Shown piece by piece: positions 19,425 through 23,438 of a stretch of DNA of 23,438 nt. Position 1 is the stretch's first letter; each line of letters opens with the position of its first letter. Both the position numbers and the translations under genes were made by a program. The stretch comes from a virus. The stretch lies in IMG/VR virus record IMGVR_UViG_3300003322_001531, positions 1-23,438 of that record; one strand, written 5' to 3'. Below the pieces are notes generated by a model, which saw only the letters and a program-made list of their open reading frames with translations, had not been told where the DNA came from and did not search any database.

Positions 19425-19955
19425 TCACTCCAGGCGGGCGACGAAGTCCCCCAGTTCGGACAGGTGCTGCCGCACCTCGCGCTCCAGCGCAACGTGCATG
19501 GCGTGCGGGTCGATCCCCAGTTCCGCCGCCAGCATCGAACTGATGCGCGCGGGCCAGTTCAGCCAGGCATCGCGCTCGACGCGGGCCAGGGCGAAGACCT
19601 GGCCGACCGCCTGCTGGCGGTCGATCAGTTCGCCGCGCAGCTGCGCGATGCGCAGCTTGTGGTGCTGGGCCTTGAGGACTTCGTTGGCGGTGCGCGCCTG
19701 CGCGTAGCTGTTACCGGCGGGCGCGCCGGCCGGGGCCGACAACGTCTCCTCCTGCGCTACGGCGCGCACCCGCGCCGGTCGCGGCGCACGCGCGGGCGCC
19801 GCCGAAGTCGTGTTGGCCGCCCACTCGGTATCGGCGCGCGCGGGATCGATGGTTCCGTCCGCCAGCGCGGTAATCCGGCCTGTGGCGATGGCTTTACGAA
19901 CGGCGGTGTCCGAGACGCCGCGATGGCGCCCGTAGGCGCGGATGCTGATTCCCAC
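19425..19955 (-). CDS. Terminase small subunit, Nu1-like (176 aa)
   Basis: A 176-aa protein with an N-terminal helix-turn-helix of Nu1 type, MGISIRAYGRHRGVSDTAVRKAIATGRITALADGTIDPARADTEW. An Ala/Pro linker follows (about 50-80), then a helical C-terminus with 'LKAQHHKLRIAQLRGELIDRQQAVGQVFALARVERDAWLNWPARISSMLAAELGI'. The start is the GTG at 19955. It has no clear Shine-Dalgarno. It recognises the packaging start site and joins the large subunit. It is the first late gene, so the late promoter or the cos/pac site should lie nearby at 19956-20029, but I see no clear consensus there. Confidence 0.88.
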   Translation of the reverse strand: MGISIRAYGRHRGVSDTAVRKAIATGRITALADGTIDPARADTEWAANTTSAAPARAPRPARVRAVAQEETLSAPAGAPAGNSYAQARTANEVLKAQHHKLRIAQLRGELIDRQQAVGQVFALARVERDAWLNWPARISSMLAAELGIDPHAMHVALEREVRQHLSELGDFVARLE

Positions 19956-20029
19956 AGACGGTCACTGGCAGATTCGGACCTCCGCGACCGCCGGCCATCG
20001 GCGCAGATTCGATAAGGGAAGAGGGAACA

Positions 20030-20055
20030 CCCCAACGCCCTTGTAGGCGCTGGAG
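20030..20055 (-). terminator. Terminator after the 175-aa accessory gene
   Basis: On the minus strand the stem CTCCAGCGCC/GGCGTTGGGG has a 6-base loop and pairs throughout when G-U wobbles are allowed. The same DNA read on the plus strand would have A-C mismatches. This favours function in the minus-strand transcript. A T-richer stretch (TGTTCCCTCTT) follows. It separates the accessory gene from the terminase gene. Confidence 0.72.
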
Positions 20056-20079
20056 TGTGCGCTCTCGCGCAGCTACGGG

Positions 20080-20607
20080 CTAATTGCGCGTTGCATATTC
20101 GGCAGCATCGCGAGCACGCTGAAGCGCCTTGGACGCTGCGCGAAGATCGGGCTGGTAGCCTGGGGCTCGCACGTCCCAGACCTCAAGCAACTTGACTCGC
20201 TGCAACAGGCGGCTCAACTCGTGGACCGGCAAAGCTATGTACTCGGGCTCCAGCGCGTCCAAGTACCGACCGATGTTCCTATGCAAGCTGCGTAGGGCCA
20301 GCTCGTCGGCGTCGAATTCCGTCGGGACCAGTCGACGCTTGTACCAGCCGCCGGCGTGTTCAACGACCTTCTCGAACTCTGCGATCTCCTCCCCGCATTC
20401 GTCCGCCATTCCCCAAATCGCTTCCGCCTCATGTTGTAGCGATTGCCTTGCGCATGCTCTCGAAGCCAGAAACTGCGAAAATCCGTAGCATCGGTAGATC
20501 GTCAATCCCGCACCGGGCAGGAAGGAGCAGTCGGACATCAACAGTCGCTCCGTCTTATCCTCAAGAGCACGCAGCGCTCCGATGGCATTCTTCTTCATTT
20601 CGTTCAT
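20080..20607 (-). CDS. Accessory protein of unknown function (175 aa)
   Basis: The product, from the ATG at 20607, starts MNEMKKNAIGALRALEDKTERLLMSDCSFLPGAGL and is mainly helical. It has no membrane segment and no motif that I recognise. Conspicuous parts are 'WGMADECGEEIAEFEKVVEHAGGWYKRR' and 'ELSRLLQRVKLLEVWDVRAPGYQPDL'. The leader ATG at 20649 in the upstream control region is in frame, so a form with 14 extra residues (MSTPQRHGEYGIFD) is possible. A second Met lies three codons in. It is a separate transcription unit with its own control region and terminator. Confidence 0.75.
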   Translation of the reverse strand: MNEMKKNAIGALRALEDKTERLLMSDCSFLPGAGLTIYRCYGFSQFLASRACARQSLQHEAEAIWGMADECGEEIAEFEKVVEHAGGWYKRRLVPTEFDADELALRSLHRNIGRYLDALEPEYIALPVHELSRLLQRVKLLEVWDVRAPGYQPDLRAASKALQRARDAAEYATRN

Positions 20608-20719
20608 ATCGAAAATTCCGTATTCGCCGTGTCGTTGCGGCGTGGACATGAACGCTTCCTCGCGCGCGAATCGCAAGCGGTCTCGCCAACAAGTCTTTGC
20701 AGAGACAGGAGCCGGACAG
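20608..20719 (-). promoter_or_regulatory. Composite control region, copy A
   Basis: Minus strand: CTGTCC (20714-20719) and CTGTCT (20703-20708), 11 bases apart; then a 23-base gap; then a 27-nt hairpin at 20653-20679 with outer stem CGCTT/AAGCG and inner stem UUCG/CGAG (one wobble). The invariant GAAGCGTTCATG places a leader ATG at 20649. A second hairpin CGCCG/CGGCG surrounds CAACGACA. The Shine-Dalgarno before the gene is weak. Five related copies follow to the right. Confidence 0.78.
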
Positions 20720-20746
20720 GAACTGCGTTCGCTGGAAGAACGAATA

Positions 20747-20771
20747 CCCCAGCCCGTCAGCGGGGCTGGGG
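20747..20771 (-). terminator. Intrinsic terminator after the 81-aa accessory gene
   Basis: Inverted repeat CCCCAGCCC/GGGCTGGGG with a 7-base loop. On the minus strand it is followed by TATTCGTTCTT. It lies between the stop at 20785 and the next control region. Confidence 0.8.
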
Positions 20772-20784
20772 ACTTCGCTCTCGC

Positions 20785-21030
20785 TCAGCGGTATACGTGC
20801 TCCTTGAGGATCGCCTCCCAGTTCGGCTCGCGCGGCAGATCCACGCTGGCTCGGTCGCAGAGCATCTGGGTGATAGCCCATGCGCTTCTGACCACCTCGT
20901 ACACCGCTTGGCGGTCCTCGACAGGCAGCGCTGCGTCTTCCTCCCGCCGAAGCAGGTCGTGCAGATAATACTCGGCCGCAGCTATGGGCTGCTGAGCCTG
21001 CGCGAATTCTCGTCCAGGAACTCGGTACAT
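20785..21030 (-). CDS. Accessory protein of unknown function (81 aa)
   Basis: A helical 81-aa protein, MYRVPGREFAQAQQPIAAAEYYLHDLLRREEDAALPVEDRQAVYEVVRSAWAITQML. I chose the ATG at 21030 because GGAG lies 8 bases upstream. A leader ATG at 21069 is in frame and would add 13 residues (MSSPQRRGKPENN). I do not recognise the family. It is flanked by its own control region and terminator, so it is a moron-like unit. Confidence 0.75.
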   Translation of the reverse strand: MYRVPGREFAQAQQPIAAAEYYLHDLLRREEDAALPVEDRQAVYEVVRSAWAITQMLCDRASVDLPREPNWEAILKEHVYR

Positions 21031-21139
21031 GTTGTTCTCCGGTTTGCCGCGTCGTTGCGGCGACGACATGAACGCTTCGTCCTACCAGAACATCAAGCGC
21101 CAAACTGCGCAGTTCAGAGGGTGGACAGCGGCGAGACAG
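21031..21139 (-). promoter_or_regulatory. Composite control region, copy B
   Basis: Minus strand: CTGTCT (21134-21139) and CTGTCC (21123-21128), 11 bases apart; 23-base gap; 27-nt hairpin at 21073-21099 with outer CGCTT/AAGCG and inner GUUCU/AGGAC. Then the invariant block with leader ATG at 21069, the second hairpin GCCGC/GCGGC around AACGAC, and the GGAG ribosome site of the gene. Confidence 0.8.
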
Positions 21140-21158
21140 GAATGATGAAGAGGGAATA

Positions 21159-21184
21159 CCCCAGCGCCCGCCTAGGCGCTGGGG
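21159..21184 (-). terminator. Intrinsic terminator after the MSYC-type gene
   Basis: Perfect 10-bp inverted repeat CCCCAGCGCC/GGCGCTGGGG with a 6-base loop, followed on the minus strand by TATTCCCTCTT. Stem and tail are nearly the same as those of the terminator at 20030-20055. Confidence 0.82.
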
Positions 21185-21200
21185 TACGTCCTCTCCAGAT

Positions 21201-21464
21201 TCAGCGACGCGGTAGGCTTGCGATCACGCTCCGCATCAGCTCTCGGGCTTCCAGGTGTTGGTCTAGCTCGACGCCCGCGTATTCGCACAGCAGCGTCAGG
21301 ATATCGAAGCATTGTTCGGCCAGATGCTCGGCGGCGCGCGCCTCTTCATGGCTGAGCGTTAACACCTCGTCCTCATCTCCCGTAATCATCTCCTCGATGG
21401 TGTTCCTGCAATCGATGAGGTCGCTCAGCGTGTTCTGGAACTTGCAGTAGGACATATTGCTCAT
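21201..21464 (-). CDS. Small accessory protein with 'MSNMSYC.F.NTL.DL.DC' start (87 aa)
   Basis: The 87-aa product from the ATG at 21464 starts MSNMSYCKFQNTLSDLIDCRNTIEEMITG. I recognise this start from a family of small conserved phage/plasmid proteins of unknown function (MSYCRFENT type). The rest is acidic and helical. GGAAG lies 8 bases before the ATG. An in-frame leader start at 21506 would add 14 residues (MCSPQRRGAHRKND). It has its own control region and terminator. Confidence 0.8.
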   Translation of the reverse strand: MSNMSYCKFQNTLSDLIDCRNTIEEMITGDEDEVLTLSHEEARAAEHLAEQCFDILTLLCEYAGVELDQHLEARELMRSVIASLPRR

Positions 21465-21576
21465 GTCGTTCTTCCGATGGGCGCCGCGTCGTTGCGGCGA
21501 GCACATGAACGCTTCCTTCCGTCCGTAAGCCAAGCGGAAGATGCACCACTCGCGTGTGCAGACAGGGTTCCGACAG
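21465..21576 (-). promoter_or_regulatory. Composite control region, copy C
   Basis: Minus strand: CTGTCG (21571-21576) and CTGTCT (21560-21565), 11 bases apart; 23-base gap; 27-nt hairpin at 21510-21536 with outer CGCTT/AAGCG and inner CUU/AAG. The leader ATG is at 21506, and the second hairpin is CGCCGC/GCGGCG around AACGAC. A GGAAG ribosome site precedes the gene. Confidence 0.8.
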
Positions 21577-21594
21577 CTTCGTGCAGCGGCGCGC

Positions 21595-22101
21595 CTACTC
21601 CGGCAACTGCCCGAGCGCTTGCTCCAACCCGCTGACCGCGAAGCTGATGCCGTGCTGGTACTCGCCGTCGCGCCGCCGGAATACGTACAAACGCTCGACC
21701 AGATCCCGTGCCTGTTCGACCCACTGGCGCGGCGTCAACGCCGGCCGACACTGGAAATAGGCATCCATTTGTCTCGCCGCAGCGGCGAAGGCCGCACTGA
21801 CGGCCGCGTTGCGCCGCTTTTTCCGCCGCCCCTGGAAACCACTACCCACACGCTGCTCCCAGTCCTGCAGTTCTTCGTTAGCGGCGCGCACCCGCGCGCA
21901 CAGCTCTACCGGCTCGATGTGCCGCGCTCGGTCCAGACGAGACCATGGCTTCAGGAAACGCGCCAATGCCTCGCACGCCTGTGTCTTGCAGAGACCGTAC
22001 TTCCACACTGGCTCCAAATCGGTCGGCGCCTCTTCAATCAACCATCGAATCCGCTTGGGCAGCGTGCCCAGCGTAAACAGTGCGTCCTGTGCGTCATGCA
22101 T
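21595..22101 (-). CDS. Accessory protein of unknown function (168 aa)
   Basis: The product starts MHDAQDALFTLGTLPKRIRWLIEEAPTDLEPVWKYGLCKTQACEALARFLKPW, is helical, and has a basic patch 'GSGFQGRRKKRRNAAVSAAFAAAARQMDAYFQCRP' in the middle. I do not recognise a family. GGAG lies about 10 bases upstream of the ATG at 22101. The out-of-frame leader (22138-22094) stops across this start codon, which suggests coupling. No terminator follows; the next control region begins 19 bases after its stop, so transcripts may run into copy C. Confidence 0.72.
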   Translation of the reverse strand: MHDAQDALFTLGTLPKRIRWLIEEAPTDLEPVWKYGLCKTQACEALARFLKPWSRLDRARHIEPVELCARVRAANEELQDWEQRVGSGFQGRRKKRRNAAVSAAFAAAARQMDAYFQCRPALTPRQWVEQARDLVERLYVFRRRDGEYQHGISFAVSGLEQALGQLPE

Positions 22102-22200
22102 GTGGTTTCTCCGGCCACCGCCTCTTGCGGCACGGCATGAACGCTTCAGTTTCAACGAAAGCCAAGCGGTGCCGCTGCGTTTTGGACAGCAGGCGGACAG
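22102..22200 (-). promoter_or_regulatory. Composite control region, copy D
   Basis: Minus strand: CTGTCC (22195-22200) and CTGTCC (22184-22189), 11 bases apart; a shorter 15-base gap; 27-nt hairpin at 22142-22168 with outer CGCTT/AAGCG and inner UUUC/GAAA. The leader ATG is at 22138 and encodes MPCRKRRWPEKPHA, ending in a TGA that overlaps the gene start. The second hairpin is GCCGC/GCGGU with one wobble. It stands back to back with copy F. Confidence 0.78.
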
Positions 22201-22212
22201 CTTCGCCCGCTC

Positions 22213-22326
22213 CTGTCTGTTAGCTGTCCGACCAAGCGAAACTGCCGTGACCCCTAACGAAAGCGCTTGGCTTCCAGCCGAACCGAAGCGTTCATGCGTC
22301 CACCCAACGCGGCCAAGGAGGCCACC
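22213..22326 (+). promoter_or_regulatory. Composite control region, copy F (divergent from copy D)
   Basis: Plus strand: CTGTCT (22213-22218) and CTGTCC (22224-22229), 11 bases apart; 34-base gap; 27-nt hairpin at 22264-22290 with outer CGCTT/AAGCG and inner GG.UUC/GAA.CC. The leader ATG at 22294 is in frame with the gene (MRPPNAAKEAT then M). The second stem is GCGT/ACGC. AAGGAG lies 6 bases before the gene start. Confidence 0.8.
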
Positions 22327-22713
22327 ATGAACGACGCACTTTTCGCCGAAATCGCTCTAGAGCACATCGGGATTACCACACTGGAAAGTCGCAAGCGCGA
22401 CGATCTGGACTTCTACAACGTCGCAGTCTGGGAGCTTCGCGGCGTCATGCGGTCGGCGTATCTGGCCGGATATGCCGCCGCGCTGCGCGCGGCGCAGGGC
22501 GCCGGACCGACATTGCCCACGGAGCGCCACACCCTGACGGGCGAAGCGTGGCTCGGTGCGGGCGAAGCCAGCGATTACGGCGACGATCCGAACGCCTACA
22601 CGGTAACCACGCTCCCGATTCCCGAGGTGGAACTGCTGAGCTACCGATGGCGGGAACGGCGCGCTTGCGATGTACTGATGCCCCGCGCCATCCAGCAACG
22701 CCGCATCGACTAA
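22327..22713 (+). CDS. DUF6900-like accessory protein with C-terminal extension (128 aa)
   Basis: The N-terminal about 50 residues (LFAEIALEHIGITTLESRKRDDLDFYNVAVWELRGVMRSAYLAGYAAAL) fit the short domain I know as DUF6900, with the typical 'LGI.TLE.R..D.LDF..VAVW..R.A...AY.AG'. That domain has no known function and is common on phages and plasmids. Here it is followed by about 75 further residues (PTLPTERHTLTGEAWLG...VELLSYRWRERRACDVL), which I do not recognise. I chose the ATG at 22327 because AAGGAG lies directly upstream. It ends before a clear terminator. Confidence 0.78.
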   Translation: MNDALFAEIALEHIGITTLESRKRDDLDFYNVAVWELRGVMRSAYLAGYAAALRAAQGAGPTLPTERHTLTGEAWLGAGEASDYGDDPNAYTVTTLPIPEVELLSYRWRERRACDVLMPRAIQQRRID

Positions 22714-22728
22714 GGCGCATCGCCACCG

Positions 22729-22756
22729 AAGCCCCCGCCCGAGCGAGGGCTTTTTT
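22729..22756 (+). terminator. Intrinsic terminator after the DUF6900-like gene
   Basis: AAGCCC (22729-22734) pairs with GGGCTT (22747-22752), with an inner CGC/GCG stem, and runs into a T6-A-T3 tract. This is a classical plus-strand terminator. The next control region starts 16 bases later. Confidence 0.9.
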
Positions 22757-22771
22757 ATTTGGACGCCGAAG

Positions 22772-22887
22772 CTGTCCGACACCTGTCCGTGATCGAGGAC
22801 GGTCGTTCTTCATCGCAGAAACCGCTTGGCTTCCTGGGCGAAGGAAGCGTTCATGCGTCCACACCAACGCGGCCACGGAGGCCAACG
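22772..22887 (+). promoter_or_regulatory. Composite control region, copy E
   Basis: Plus strand: CTGTCC (22772-22777) and CTGTCC (22783-22788), 11 bases apart; 34-base gap; 27-nt hairpin at 22823-22849 with outer CGCTT/AAGCG and inner CUUC/GAAG. The leader ATG at 22853 opens a 26-codon frame that ends at 22933, out of frame and inside the gene. The second stem is GCGT/ACGC. GGAG lies 7 bases before the gene start. Confidence 0.8.
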
Positions 22888-23118
22888 ATGCAAGAGCAGA
22901 CCGAACAACTCAAAGATTTCCTGCGCGGCATGAAACAGGCCAACCGCTCGAAGCTAGCGCAGCTGAGCGCTTACCCCGACTGGTACGGCGCGAGCCGGCG
23001 AGAGATGGAACGCCGGGCGACACAGTTTCTGGAGATGCTGCCCGACTACATCTTGGCCGGACTGGTCTCCGGCGAGATCCAGATGCGCGAGGCCATCGCC
23101 GATGTCCTCGCCGAGTAA
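22888..23118 (+). CDS. Small accessory protein of unknown function (76 aa)
   Basis: A helical 76-aa protein, MQEQTEQLKDFLRGMKQANRSKLAQLSAYPDWYGASRREMERRATQFLEMLPDYILAGLVSGEIQMREAIADVLAE. I do not recognise a family. It has a good ribosome site (GGAG, 7 bases). It is the first gene of a plus-strand operon: the next gene starts 17 bases before its stop. The out-of-frame leader overlaps its first 46 bases. Confidence 0.75.
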   Translation: MQEQTEQLKDFLRGMKQANRSKLAQLSAYPDWYGASRREMERRATQFLEMLPDYILAGLVSGEIQMREAIADVLAE

Positions 23119-23293
23119 CCCCGAACTCTGGTTTCTCAAGGCGCTGCACACCTCGGTGTTGCTTGCTGCCGTCAACGGAACCCTCGACCTCAACCAACTC
23201 GCTCGCGACGAACTCGTTCGTCGCGGACTGGACCCGAGCGGCGAATGGGTTGGTCCCCGCCGCGCCCATGACCTGCACTACCCCATCCAATAA
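23102..23293 (+). CDS. Conserved small accessory protein (63 aa)
   Basis: The product MSSPSNPELWFLKALHTSVLLAAVNGTLDLNQLARDELVRRGLDPSGEWVGPRRAHDLH has the 'LNQLAR.EL..RGLD..G.WVG...A..LH' pattern. I recall this from small proteins of plasmids and integrative elements in proteobacteria. Its function is unknown. The start overlaps the preceding gene by 17 bases, and the stop lies within the ribosome site of the next gene, so the three form an operon. Confidence 0.8.
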   Translation: MSSPSNPELWFLKALHTSVLLAAVNGTLDLNQLARDELVRRGLDPSGEWVGPRRAHDLHYPIQ

Positions 23294-23304
23294 GGAGCTT
23301 GACC

Positions 23305-23438
23305 ATGACCACCATCGAACTCTCCGCCAACCAGCGCCACGTCCTCGAAATGGCTCAGAACACCAGCGGCTACGTCGAGGACTACCCCACCGGCTTGCTG
23401 GGCGGTGCCCGGACCAGCGTCGTGCGCGCCCTGCTGCG
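23305..23438 (+). CDS. DUF3489-like protein, N-terminal part (cut by window edge)
   Basis: AAGGAG at 23292-23297 precedes an ATG at 23305. The frame is open for 44 codons to the window end: MTTIELSANQRHVLEMA, then YPTGLLGGARTSVVRALL. The pattern 'T..LS..QR..L..A......P....GGAR..V...L' resembles the start of DUF3489 proteins, found on mobile elements and without known function. It is too short to be sure. Confidence 0.55.
   Translation, partial: MTTIELSANQRHVLEMAQNTSGYVEDYPTGLLGGARTSVVRALL

Follow-up and report, generated by a model that had tools for sequence, protein, structure and literature searches.

Phages are known to redirect the host RNA polymerase through a factor that acts on sigma region 4 or is related to it, as in phage T4 with the MotA/AsiA sigma appropriation at middle promoters and with gp33/gp55. 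The put antitermination sites of phage HK022 consist of two adjacent stem-loops at the transcript start, and their action depends on RNA structure. Here we analysed a 27-nt element that occurs in six copies in a phage fragment of 23,438 nucleotides (IMG/VR record IMGVR_UViG_3300003322_001531, positions 1 to 23,438; this whole stretch is referred to as the window), in which late genes, including that for terminase, lie to one side and a cluster of small genes to the other. We consider it likely, with a probability of about 70%, that the copies are cores of fixed-geometry phage promoters, not RNA structures, and that host RNA polymerase is redirected to them by a sigma4-like phage protein, for which DUF6362 is the best candidate.

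Like the T4 system, this one would comprise phage promoters with a non-host -35 region; T4 middle promoters, however, keep a good sigma70 -10 element, whereas the GTTCAT found here is not sigma70-like, and we know of no sequence relation between the element and the T4 system. In contrast to the HK022 put sites, the structure of the first stem is not conserved here, and this stem is probably not within the transcript but upstream of it. Another comparable system is formed by the SAS and ESAS of cluster K mycobacteriophages, where SAS, a 13-bp repeat with the sequence GGGATAGGAGCCC, is found at the start codon and has a proposed translational role, and the ESAS repeats have a variable spacer (PMC3203893). 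The element resembles them in being present in many copies, with an inverted repeat, before small unrelated phage genes, but differs in its fixed spacing, its position upstream of the Shine-Dalgarno sequence and its unrelated sequence. Finally, the late transcriptional regulators (RinA/Ltr) of temperate phages infecting Gram-positive hosts each act on a single promoter immediately downstream (PMC13123087), while the element described here is found in one to seven or more copies before individual small genes.

Conserved sequence and spacing of the element

The pattern CGCTT-N17-AAGCGTTCATG has six matches in the window, two on the plus and four on the minus strand, against an arithmetic chance estimate of ~1e-5 matches per 23 kb and no matches of the reversed control pattern. 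Behind each copy lies one separate small gene, which bears out the proposal, made in a sequence-only reading of this DNA, of a composite control element in front of unrelated genes, where the element and not the protein is common. Pattern scans detected the element in viral contigs and bacterial genomes, and the comparison below covers more than 200 relatives. The main carriers are Lysobacter prophages; alpha-, beta-, and gammaproteobacterial phages have it as well, as does Acidithiobacillus phage AcaML1. A relaxed scan, with scoring at the fixed 27-nt spacing, yielded 116 copies of the Lysobacter type. When loci were sampled by the DUF6362 protein and not by the motif, variant II emerged, GCTTGGCTTC-N9-CAGCGCGTTCAT, with the same spacing as in variant I and with four copies in AcaML1.

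With the 27-mer's first base as position 1, positions 3–6 (CTTG), 10 (T), 22–33, and 40 are conserved in the Lysobacter copies, giving a bipartite and asymmetric pattern. Its core, TTGGCT-N17-GTTCAT, has a fixed spacing, with TTGGCT at positions 4–9, GTTCAT at positions 27–32, and a 17-bp spacer between them. In the DUF6362 loci TTGGCTT-N14-GCGTTCATG gave 112 matches, compared to none for N13 and four for N15; a peak at N19 was discarded as self-overlap of the same sites. A pyrimidine–purine step at positions 38/39, six bases past GTTCAT, is present in 80%, 98%, and 97% of copies in three groups and is the highest of all neighbouring steps in each of them, though the bases differ; these two positions were absent from every search pattern. 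Five of the six window copies carry the step, copy D being the exception. Gene starts with Shine-Dalgarno sequences are located at positions 55–78.

From this sequence comparison we strongly infer that the element is a promoter, in which TTGGCT would serve as the -35 and GTTCAT as the -10 element, separated by the 17-bp spacer. Transcription is predicted to start near position 39, 6–8 bases past GCGTTCAT, just before the Shine-Dalgarno sequence and the true start codon of the small gene. Terminator-like hairpins are found between the preceding gene and the upstream boxes described below for copies A, B, and E, and a promoter is therefore needed in that gap. A search for sigma70-type promoters at 19900–23438 of the window found none, the -10-like GTTCAT not being TATAAT-like with an A at -11, and a sigma70 promoter upstream of the hairpin was rejected for the lack of any sigma70-type site in the region. 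Since the -10 does not follow the sigma70 consensus, a phage factor redirecting the host RNA polymerase is proposed.

Upstream of the Lysobacter copies, CTGTC boxes start at -50, -39/-40, and -28/-29, forming an 11-bp ladder, and 62 of the 72 pairs are spaced by 11 bp. Pair centres lie near -70 and -81 from the inferred transcription start, which resembles the class I activator positions known from CRP-type activation; an activator probably recognises these pairs from one and the same side of the helix. In some copies (L058, L066, L043 upstream) CTTAACG or CTAAACA takes the place of the second box, with the spacing unchanged. Many rightward copies of the -50/-39 class also have a palindrome related to GAACGNNCGTTC between the boxes and the element (for example, at 22794–22808 of the window), possibly the site of a second regulator.

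Pairing in the 27-nt hairpin and alternative explanations

In the sequence-only reading, the six 27-nt copies had been credited with pairing arms, including an inner stem that varies in sequence yet still pairs, and this was taken to indicate a selected structure of RNA or single-stranded DNA. The copies are indeed present (Table 1), but the covariation was not confirmed. Among 75 aligned copies no double changes were detected in the outer stem, the pair 2–26 was broken in 21, and 78 of 500 shuffles equalled the covariation score of the alignment. The 3' arm hardly varies, with the 3' half GAAGCGTTCATG nearly constant in the Lysobacter copies, while the 5' arm drifts without compensation (TGCTT, CACTT, CTATT, ACCTT, as well as GAGTT and CAGTT in betaproteobacterial phages). 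When the 5' and 3' halves were exchanged between copies, no stability was lost (native versus swapped folding energies): -7.45 versus -7.44 +/- 0.14 for Lysobacter copies, -3.97 versus -4.17 +/- 0.20 for other variant I copies, and -6.79 versus -6.83 +/- 0.13 for variant II. Pairs add about 0.1 bit to a covariance model (0.989 bits per position with nine pairs versus 0.985 without); paired and unpaired models each recovered all six copies, with slightly better E-values for the paired one, their bit scores not being directly comparable.

The larger alignment lacks significant covariation, an outcome that the sequence-only reading had itself named as refuting its view, and together with the neutral half-swap this leaves the hairpin reading unsupported. 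The inner pairing of the six copies comes from two stretches of conserved sequence whose complementarity is fortuitous, and two such DNA blocks can create the appearance of covariation by eye. The 27-nt length is better explained as -35/-10 spacing, because the same spacing is kept in copies unable to form the outer stem. Regarding the second hairpin, said to follow the ATG and to keep pairing while changing sequence, a GCCGC/GCGGC stem after the inferred start is real, being located at positions 38–53 after the element in the leftward class only (units at 20785–22101 of the window), but it displays no covariation either, and swapping its halves was neutral (-10.99 versus -11.01 +/- 0.12). The rightward class has instead a GGCC-ACGGA-GGCC arrangement around the Shine-Dalgarno sequence.

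A structured leader, in which the 27-nt hairpin controls transcription or translation from the mRNA or from single-stranded DNA, would be consistent with the outer stem being possible in most Lysobacter copies (78% with all five pairs), with native folding somewhat better than that of column-shuffled sequences (-7.45 versus -6.84 +/- 0.18), and with the second hairpin of the leftward class. Given the missing covariation and the nearly equal information content of the paired and unpaired models, and considering that betaproteobacterial copies of identical length lack the outer stem and that variant II alters the 3' arm only, we find it decidedly improbable. The CGCTT and AAGCG inverted repeats, ~22 bp apart at a fixed spacing, or about two helical turns, could also form a double-stranded DNA operator to which a phage repressor or some other protein binds, the real promoter lying elsewhere; the DNA-level evidence, namely spacing and box phasing, fits any DNA-binding protein. 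This explanation appears unlikely, as the motif is asymmetric, with a 3' half running through TTCAT and a looser 5' half, no other promoter signal was found in the gap, and a conserved pyrimidine–purine step stands at the expected transcription start.

One could also suppose that the element combines a promoter with a loading site for a Q-like antiterminator, DUF6362, allowing the polymerase to read through the terminators behind each small gene into the late operon. Several small genes are followed by terminators and DUF6362 weakly matches phrog_79, but this match covers only the sigma4-like helix-turn-helix (HTH) and many copies drive genes that point away from the late operon (L144, L148, L162, and similar loci); we consider such a role highly improbable. 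As for a leader peptide translated from the ATG after the hairpin, this triplet is present in 110 of the 116 Lysobacter copies, and it shares the reading frame of the gene in 50 of 113 cases, slightly more than one third. Variant II copies carry ATC (28), ATG (21), or ATA (17) after TTC, with ATT also occurring; beta- and alphaproteobacterial copies have ATG-TAA or ATG-TGA, and AcaML1 has ATA. With ATC, ATA, or ATT in most variant II copies and an ATG followed by a stop in other groups, the ATG is not a start codon. The leader peptide is refuted as a general explanation, and the element is not a conserved translated peptide, in line with the sequence-only reading.

DUF6362 as the candidate reader

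The preferred explanation, a phage promoter of fixed geometry, includes a proposed factor acting on the host RNA polymerase. Phages carrying the motif have a common early module comprising a methyltransferase with a ParB-like domain, DUF6362, a RuvC-like nuclease, a VapE-like primase, an AAA_24 ATPase, and others, some of these names being our reading of the sequences. DUF6362 was found in 22 of the 28 motif contigs, including every contig of at least 34 kb. Conversely, the motif (with up to 2 mismatches) was present in every one of the 32 DUF6362 loci that reach 15 kb, while shuffled motifs were found in 0–3 of 80 loci. DUF6362 is encoded in 10 of 11 genomes with the true motif and in none of 17 with a single chance-like match, a division made by reading the context of each match. 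Among 273 gammaproteobacterial genomes drawn independently of both the motif and DUF6362, only G083, G182, G191, and G229 contain the exact motif two or more times, and the same four are the only ones with DUF6362 above the cut-off. The distance between motif and gene is ~3–6 kb. DUF6362 was found in more than 500 viral loci.

Two AlphaFold models of DUF6362 (mean pLDDT 73 and 76) were searched with Foldseek, and in the resulting lists ECF sigma factors and isolated sigma region 4 predominated. The matches included SigR region 4 (probability 1.00, target TM 0.74; 0.6–0.77 for region-4 chains) and sigmaE region 4 on -35 DNA (root-mean-square deviation 1.6 A). These model-based comparisons suggest that the C-terminal domain of DUF6362 folds as sigma region 4. 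At the sequence level, it weakly matched PHROG families annotated as a transcription regulator (E 1.3e-4) and as 'anti-termination protein Q-like' (phrog_79, E 0.0028), and a search against the PDB gave a weak match only, to RpoE (9n9q_C, E 0.33). As a hypothesis drawn from the models, DUF6362, the product of an early-operon gene a few kb away, may read the element and thereby redirect the host RNA polymerase.

Several observations weigh against this assignment. The Foldseek E-values are individually non-significant (0.31 at best), and LuxR-type HTH domains are also listed. DUF6362 has no sigma2-like domain for contact with the -10 element, and a host sigma factor or another partner would be needed. 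Its gene is absent from the window, which is a fragment, and no copy of the motif stands directly before the terminase gene of the late operon there. Phage RcSwan encodes a DUF6362 homologue and lacks the motif, and AcaML1 carries variant II with DUF6456, not DUF6362. Moreover, DUF6362 travels with the whole early module, and co-occurrence cannot single it out. The DUF6456-like protein of AcaML1 (L126, 14552–15079) is encoded where this early module otherwise has DUF6362, possibly a non-homologous replacement. Attribution of the altered 3' half in AcaML1 to this different regulator was abandoned, since variant II also occurs with DUF6362. Genes for phrog_10315/DUF3489 HTH proteins recur near the element in many such phages (from 23305 in the window; 21337–21933 in L126) and could encode a second regulator.

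Organisation of the window and significance

The features of the six units are listed in Table 1.

Table 1. Elements, upstream boxes, genes and terminator-like hairpins of the six units (positions in the window).
Feature	Position	Strand	Remarks
Terminator-like hairpin between gene A and small terminase gene	20018..20066	-	
Small gene behind copy A	20080..20607	-	start codon uncertain; no Pfam match
Copy A, 27-nt element	20653..20679	-	-35-like 20671-20676, -10-like 20648-20653, predicted +1 20641
CTGTC box pair of copy A	20704..20719	-	11 bp apart, upstream of the element
Terminator-like hairpin of preceding unit (gene B)	20737..20781	-	adjoins the boxes of copy A upstream
Small gene behind copy B	20785..21030	-	
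Copy B, 27-nt element	21073..21099	-	-35-like 21091-21096, -10-like 21068-21073, predicted +1 21061
CTGTC box pair of copy B	21124..21139	-	
Terminator-like hairpin between gene C and copy B	21150..21195	-	
Small gene behind copy C	21201..21464	-	phrog_8760, unknown function
Copy C, 27-nt element	21510..21536	-	-35-like 21528-21533, -10-like 21505-21510, predicted +1 21498
CTGTC box pair of copy C	21561..21576	-	
Small gene behind copy D	21595..22101	-	
Copy D, 27-nt element	22142..22168	-	-35-like 22160-22165, -10-like 22137-22142, predicted +1 near 22130
CTGTC box pair of copy D	22185..22200	-	at -31/-20, off the main ladder
CTGTC box pair of copy F	22213..22228	+	
Copy F, 27-nt element	22264..22290	+	-35-like 22267-22272, -10-like 22290-22295, predicted +1 22302
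DUF6900 gene behind copy F	22327..22713	+	E 8.8e-18
Terminator (stem and T run) between DUF6900 gene and copy E	22729..22757	+	T run read from the sequence
CTGTC box pair of copy E	22772..22787	+	
Copy E, 27-nt element	22823..22849	+	-35-like 22826-22831, -10-like 22849-22854, predicted +1 22861
First small gene behind copy E	22888..23118	+	followed by 23102-23293 (phrog_22970) and an open reading frame from 23305 (phrog_10315)

The small genes behind copies B, C, D, and F and the first behind E resemble exchangeable cassettes and lie between the early and late regions, several with their own promoter-like element and terminator. Accessory or anti-defence genes would fit such a site, and most of the products have no known function.

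No match to the window was found by megablast against INPHARED, and a distant BLAST search of one unit against phages and plasmids returned chance pieces only. An Rfam scan of the window and eight related loci detected nothing relevant, in agreement with the view of the sequence-only reading that no named element has this build. The radC RNA motif, considered because of a similar gene context, was rejected, as it gave only chance-level matches, in control genomes too. Near-perfect single matches to the motif inside serine recombinase coding sequence (PARSYNSIDAQ) in G064 (C5:23658) and L200 (19465, reverse strand) are, as read from the sequence, probably coincidental.

Phage promoters served by a phage-encoded polymerase-redirecting factor are a known kind of system, but a literature search for DUF6362, radC RNA, and the motif letters found no description of this family or its candidate factor. 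We tentatively propose, at somewhat less than even odds, that the elements constitute an undescribed promoter class, present in hundreds of alpha-, beta-, and gammaproteobacterial temperate phages and read by host RNA polymerase with the help of DUF6362 as a free-standing sigma region 4 without region 2.

With the motif as a guide, a large class of accessory genes that lack annotation can be located, one per copy, along with their probable start sites, and the association of the motif with DUF6362 assigns a plausible function to this domain of unknown function. If the proposed role is correct, DUF6362 as a region-4-only sigma-like factor would be a new case of host RNA polymerase takeover in temperate phages of Gram-negative bacteria, and small accessory genes could be plugged in as promoter–gene–terminator cassettes and switched on together.

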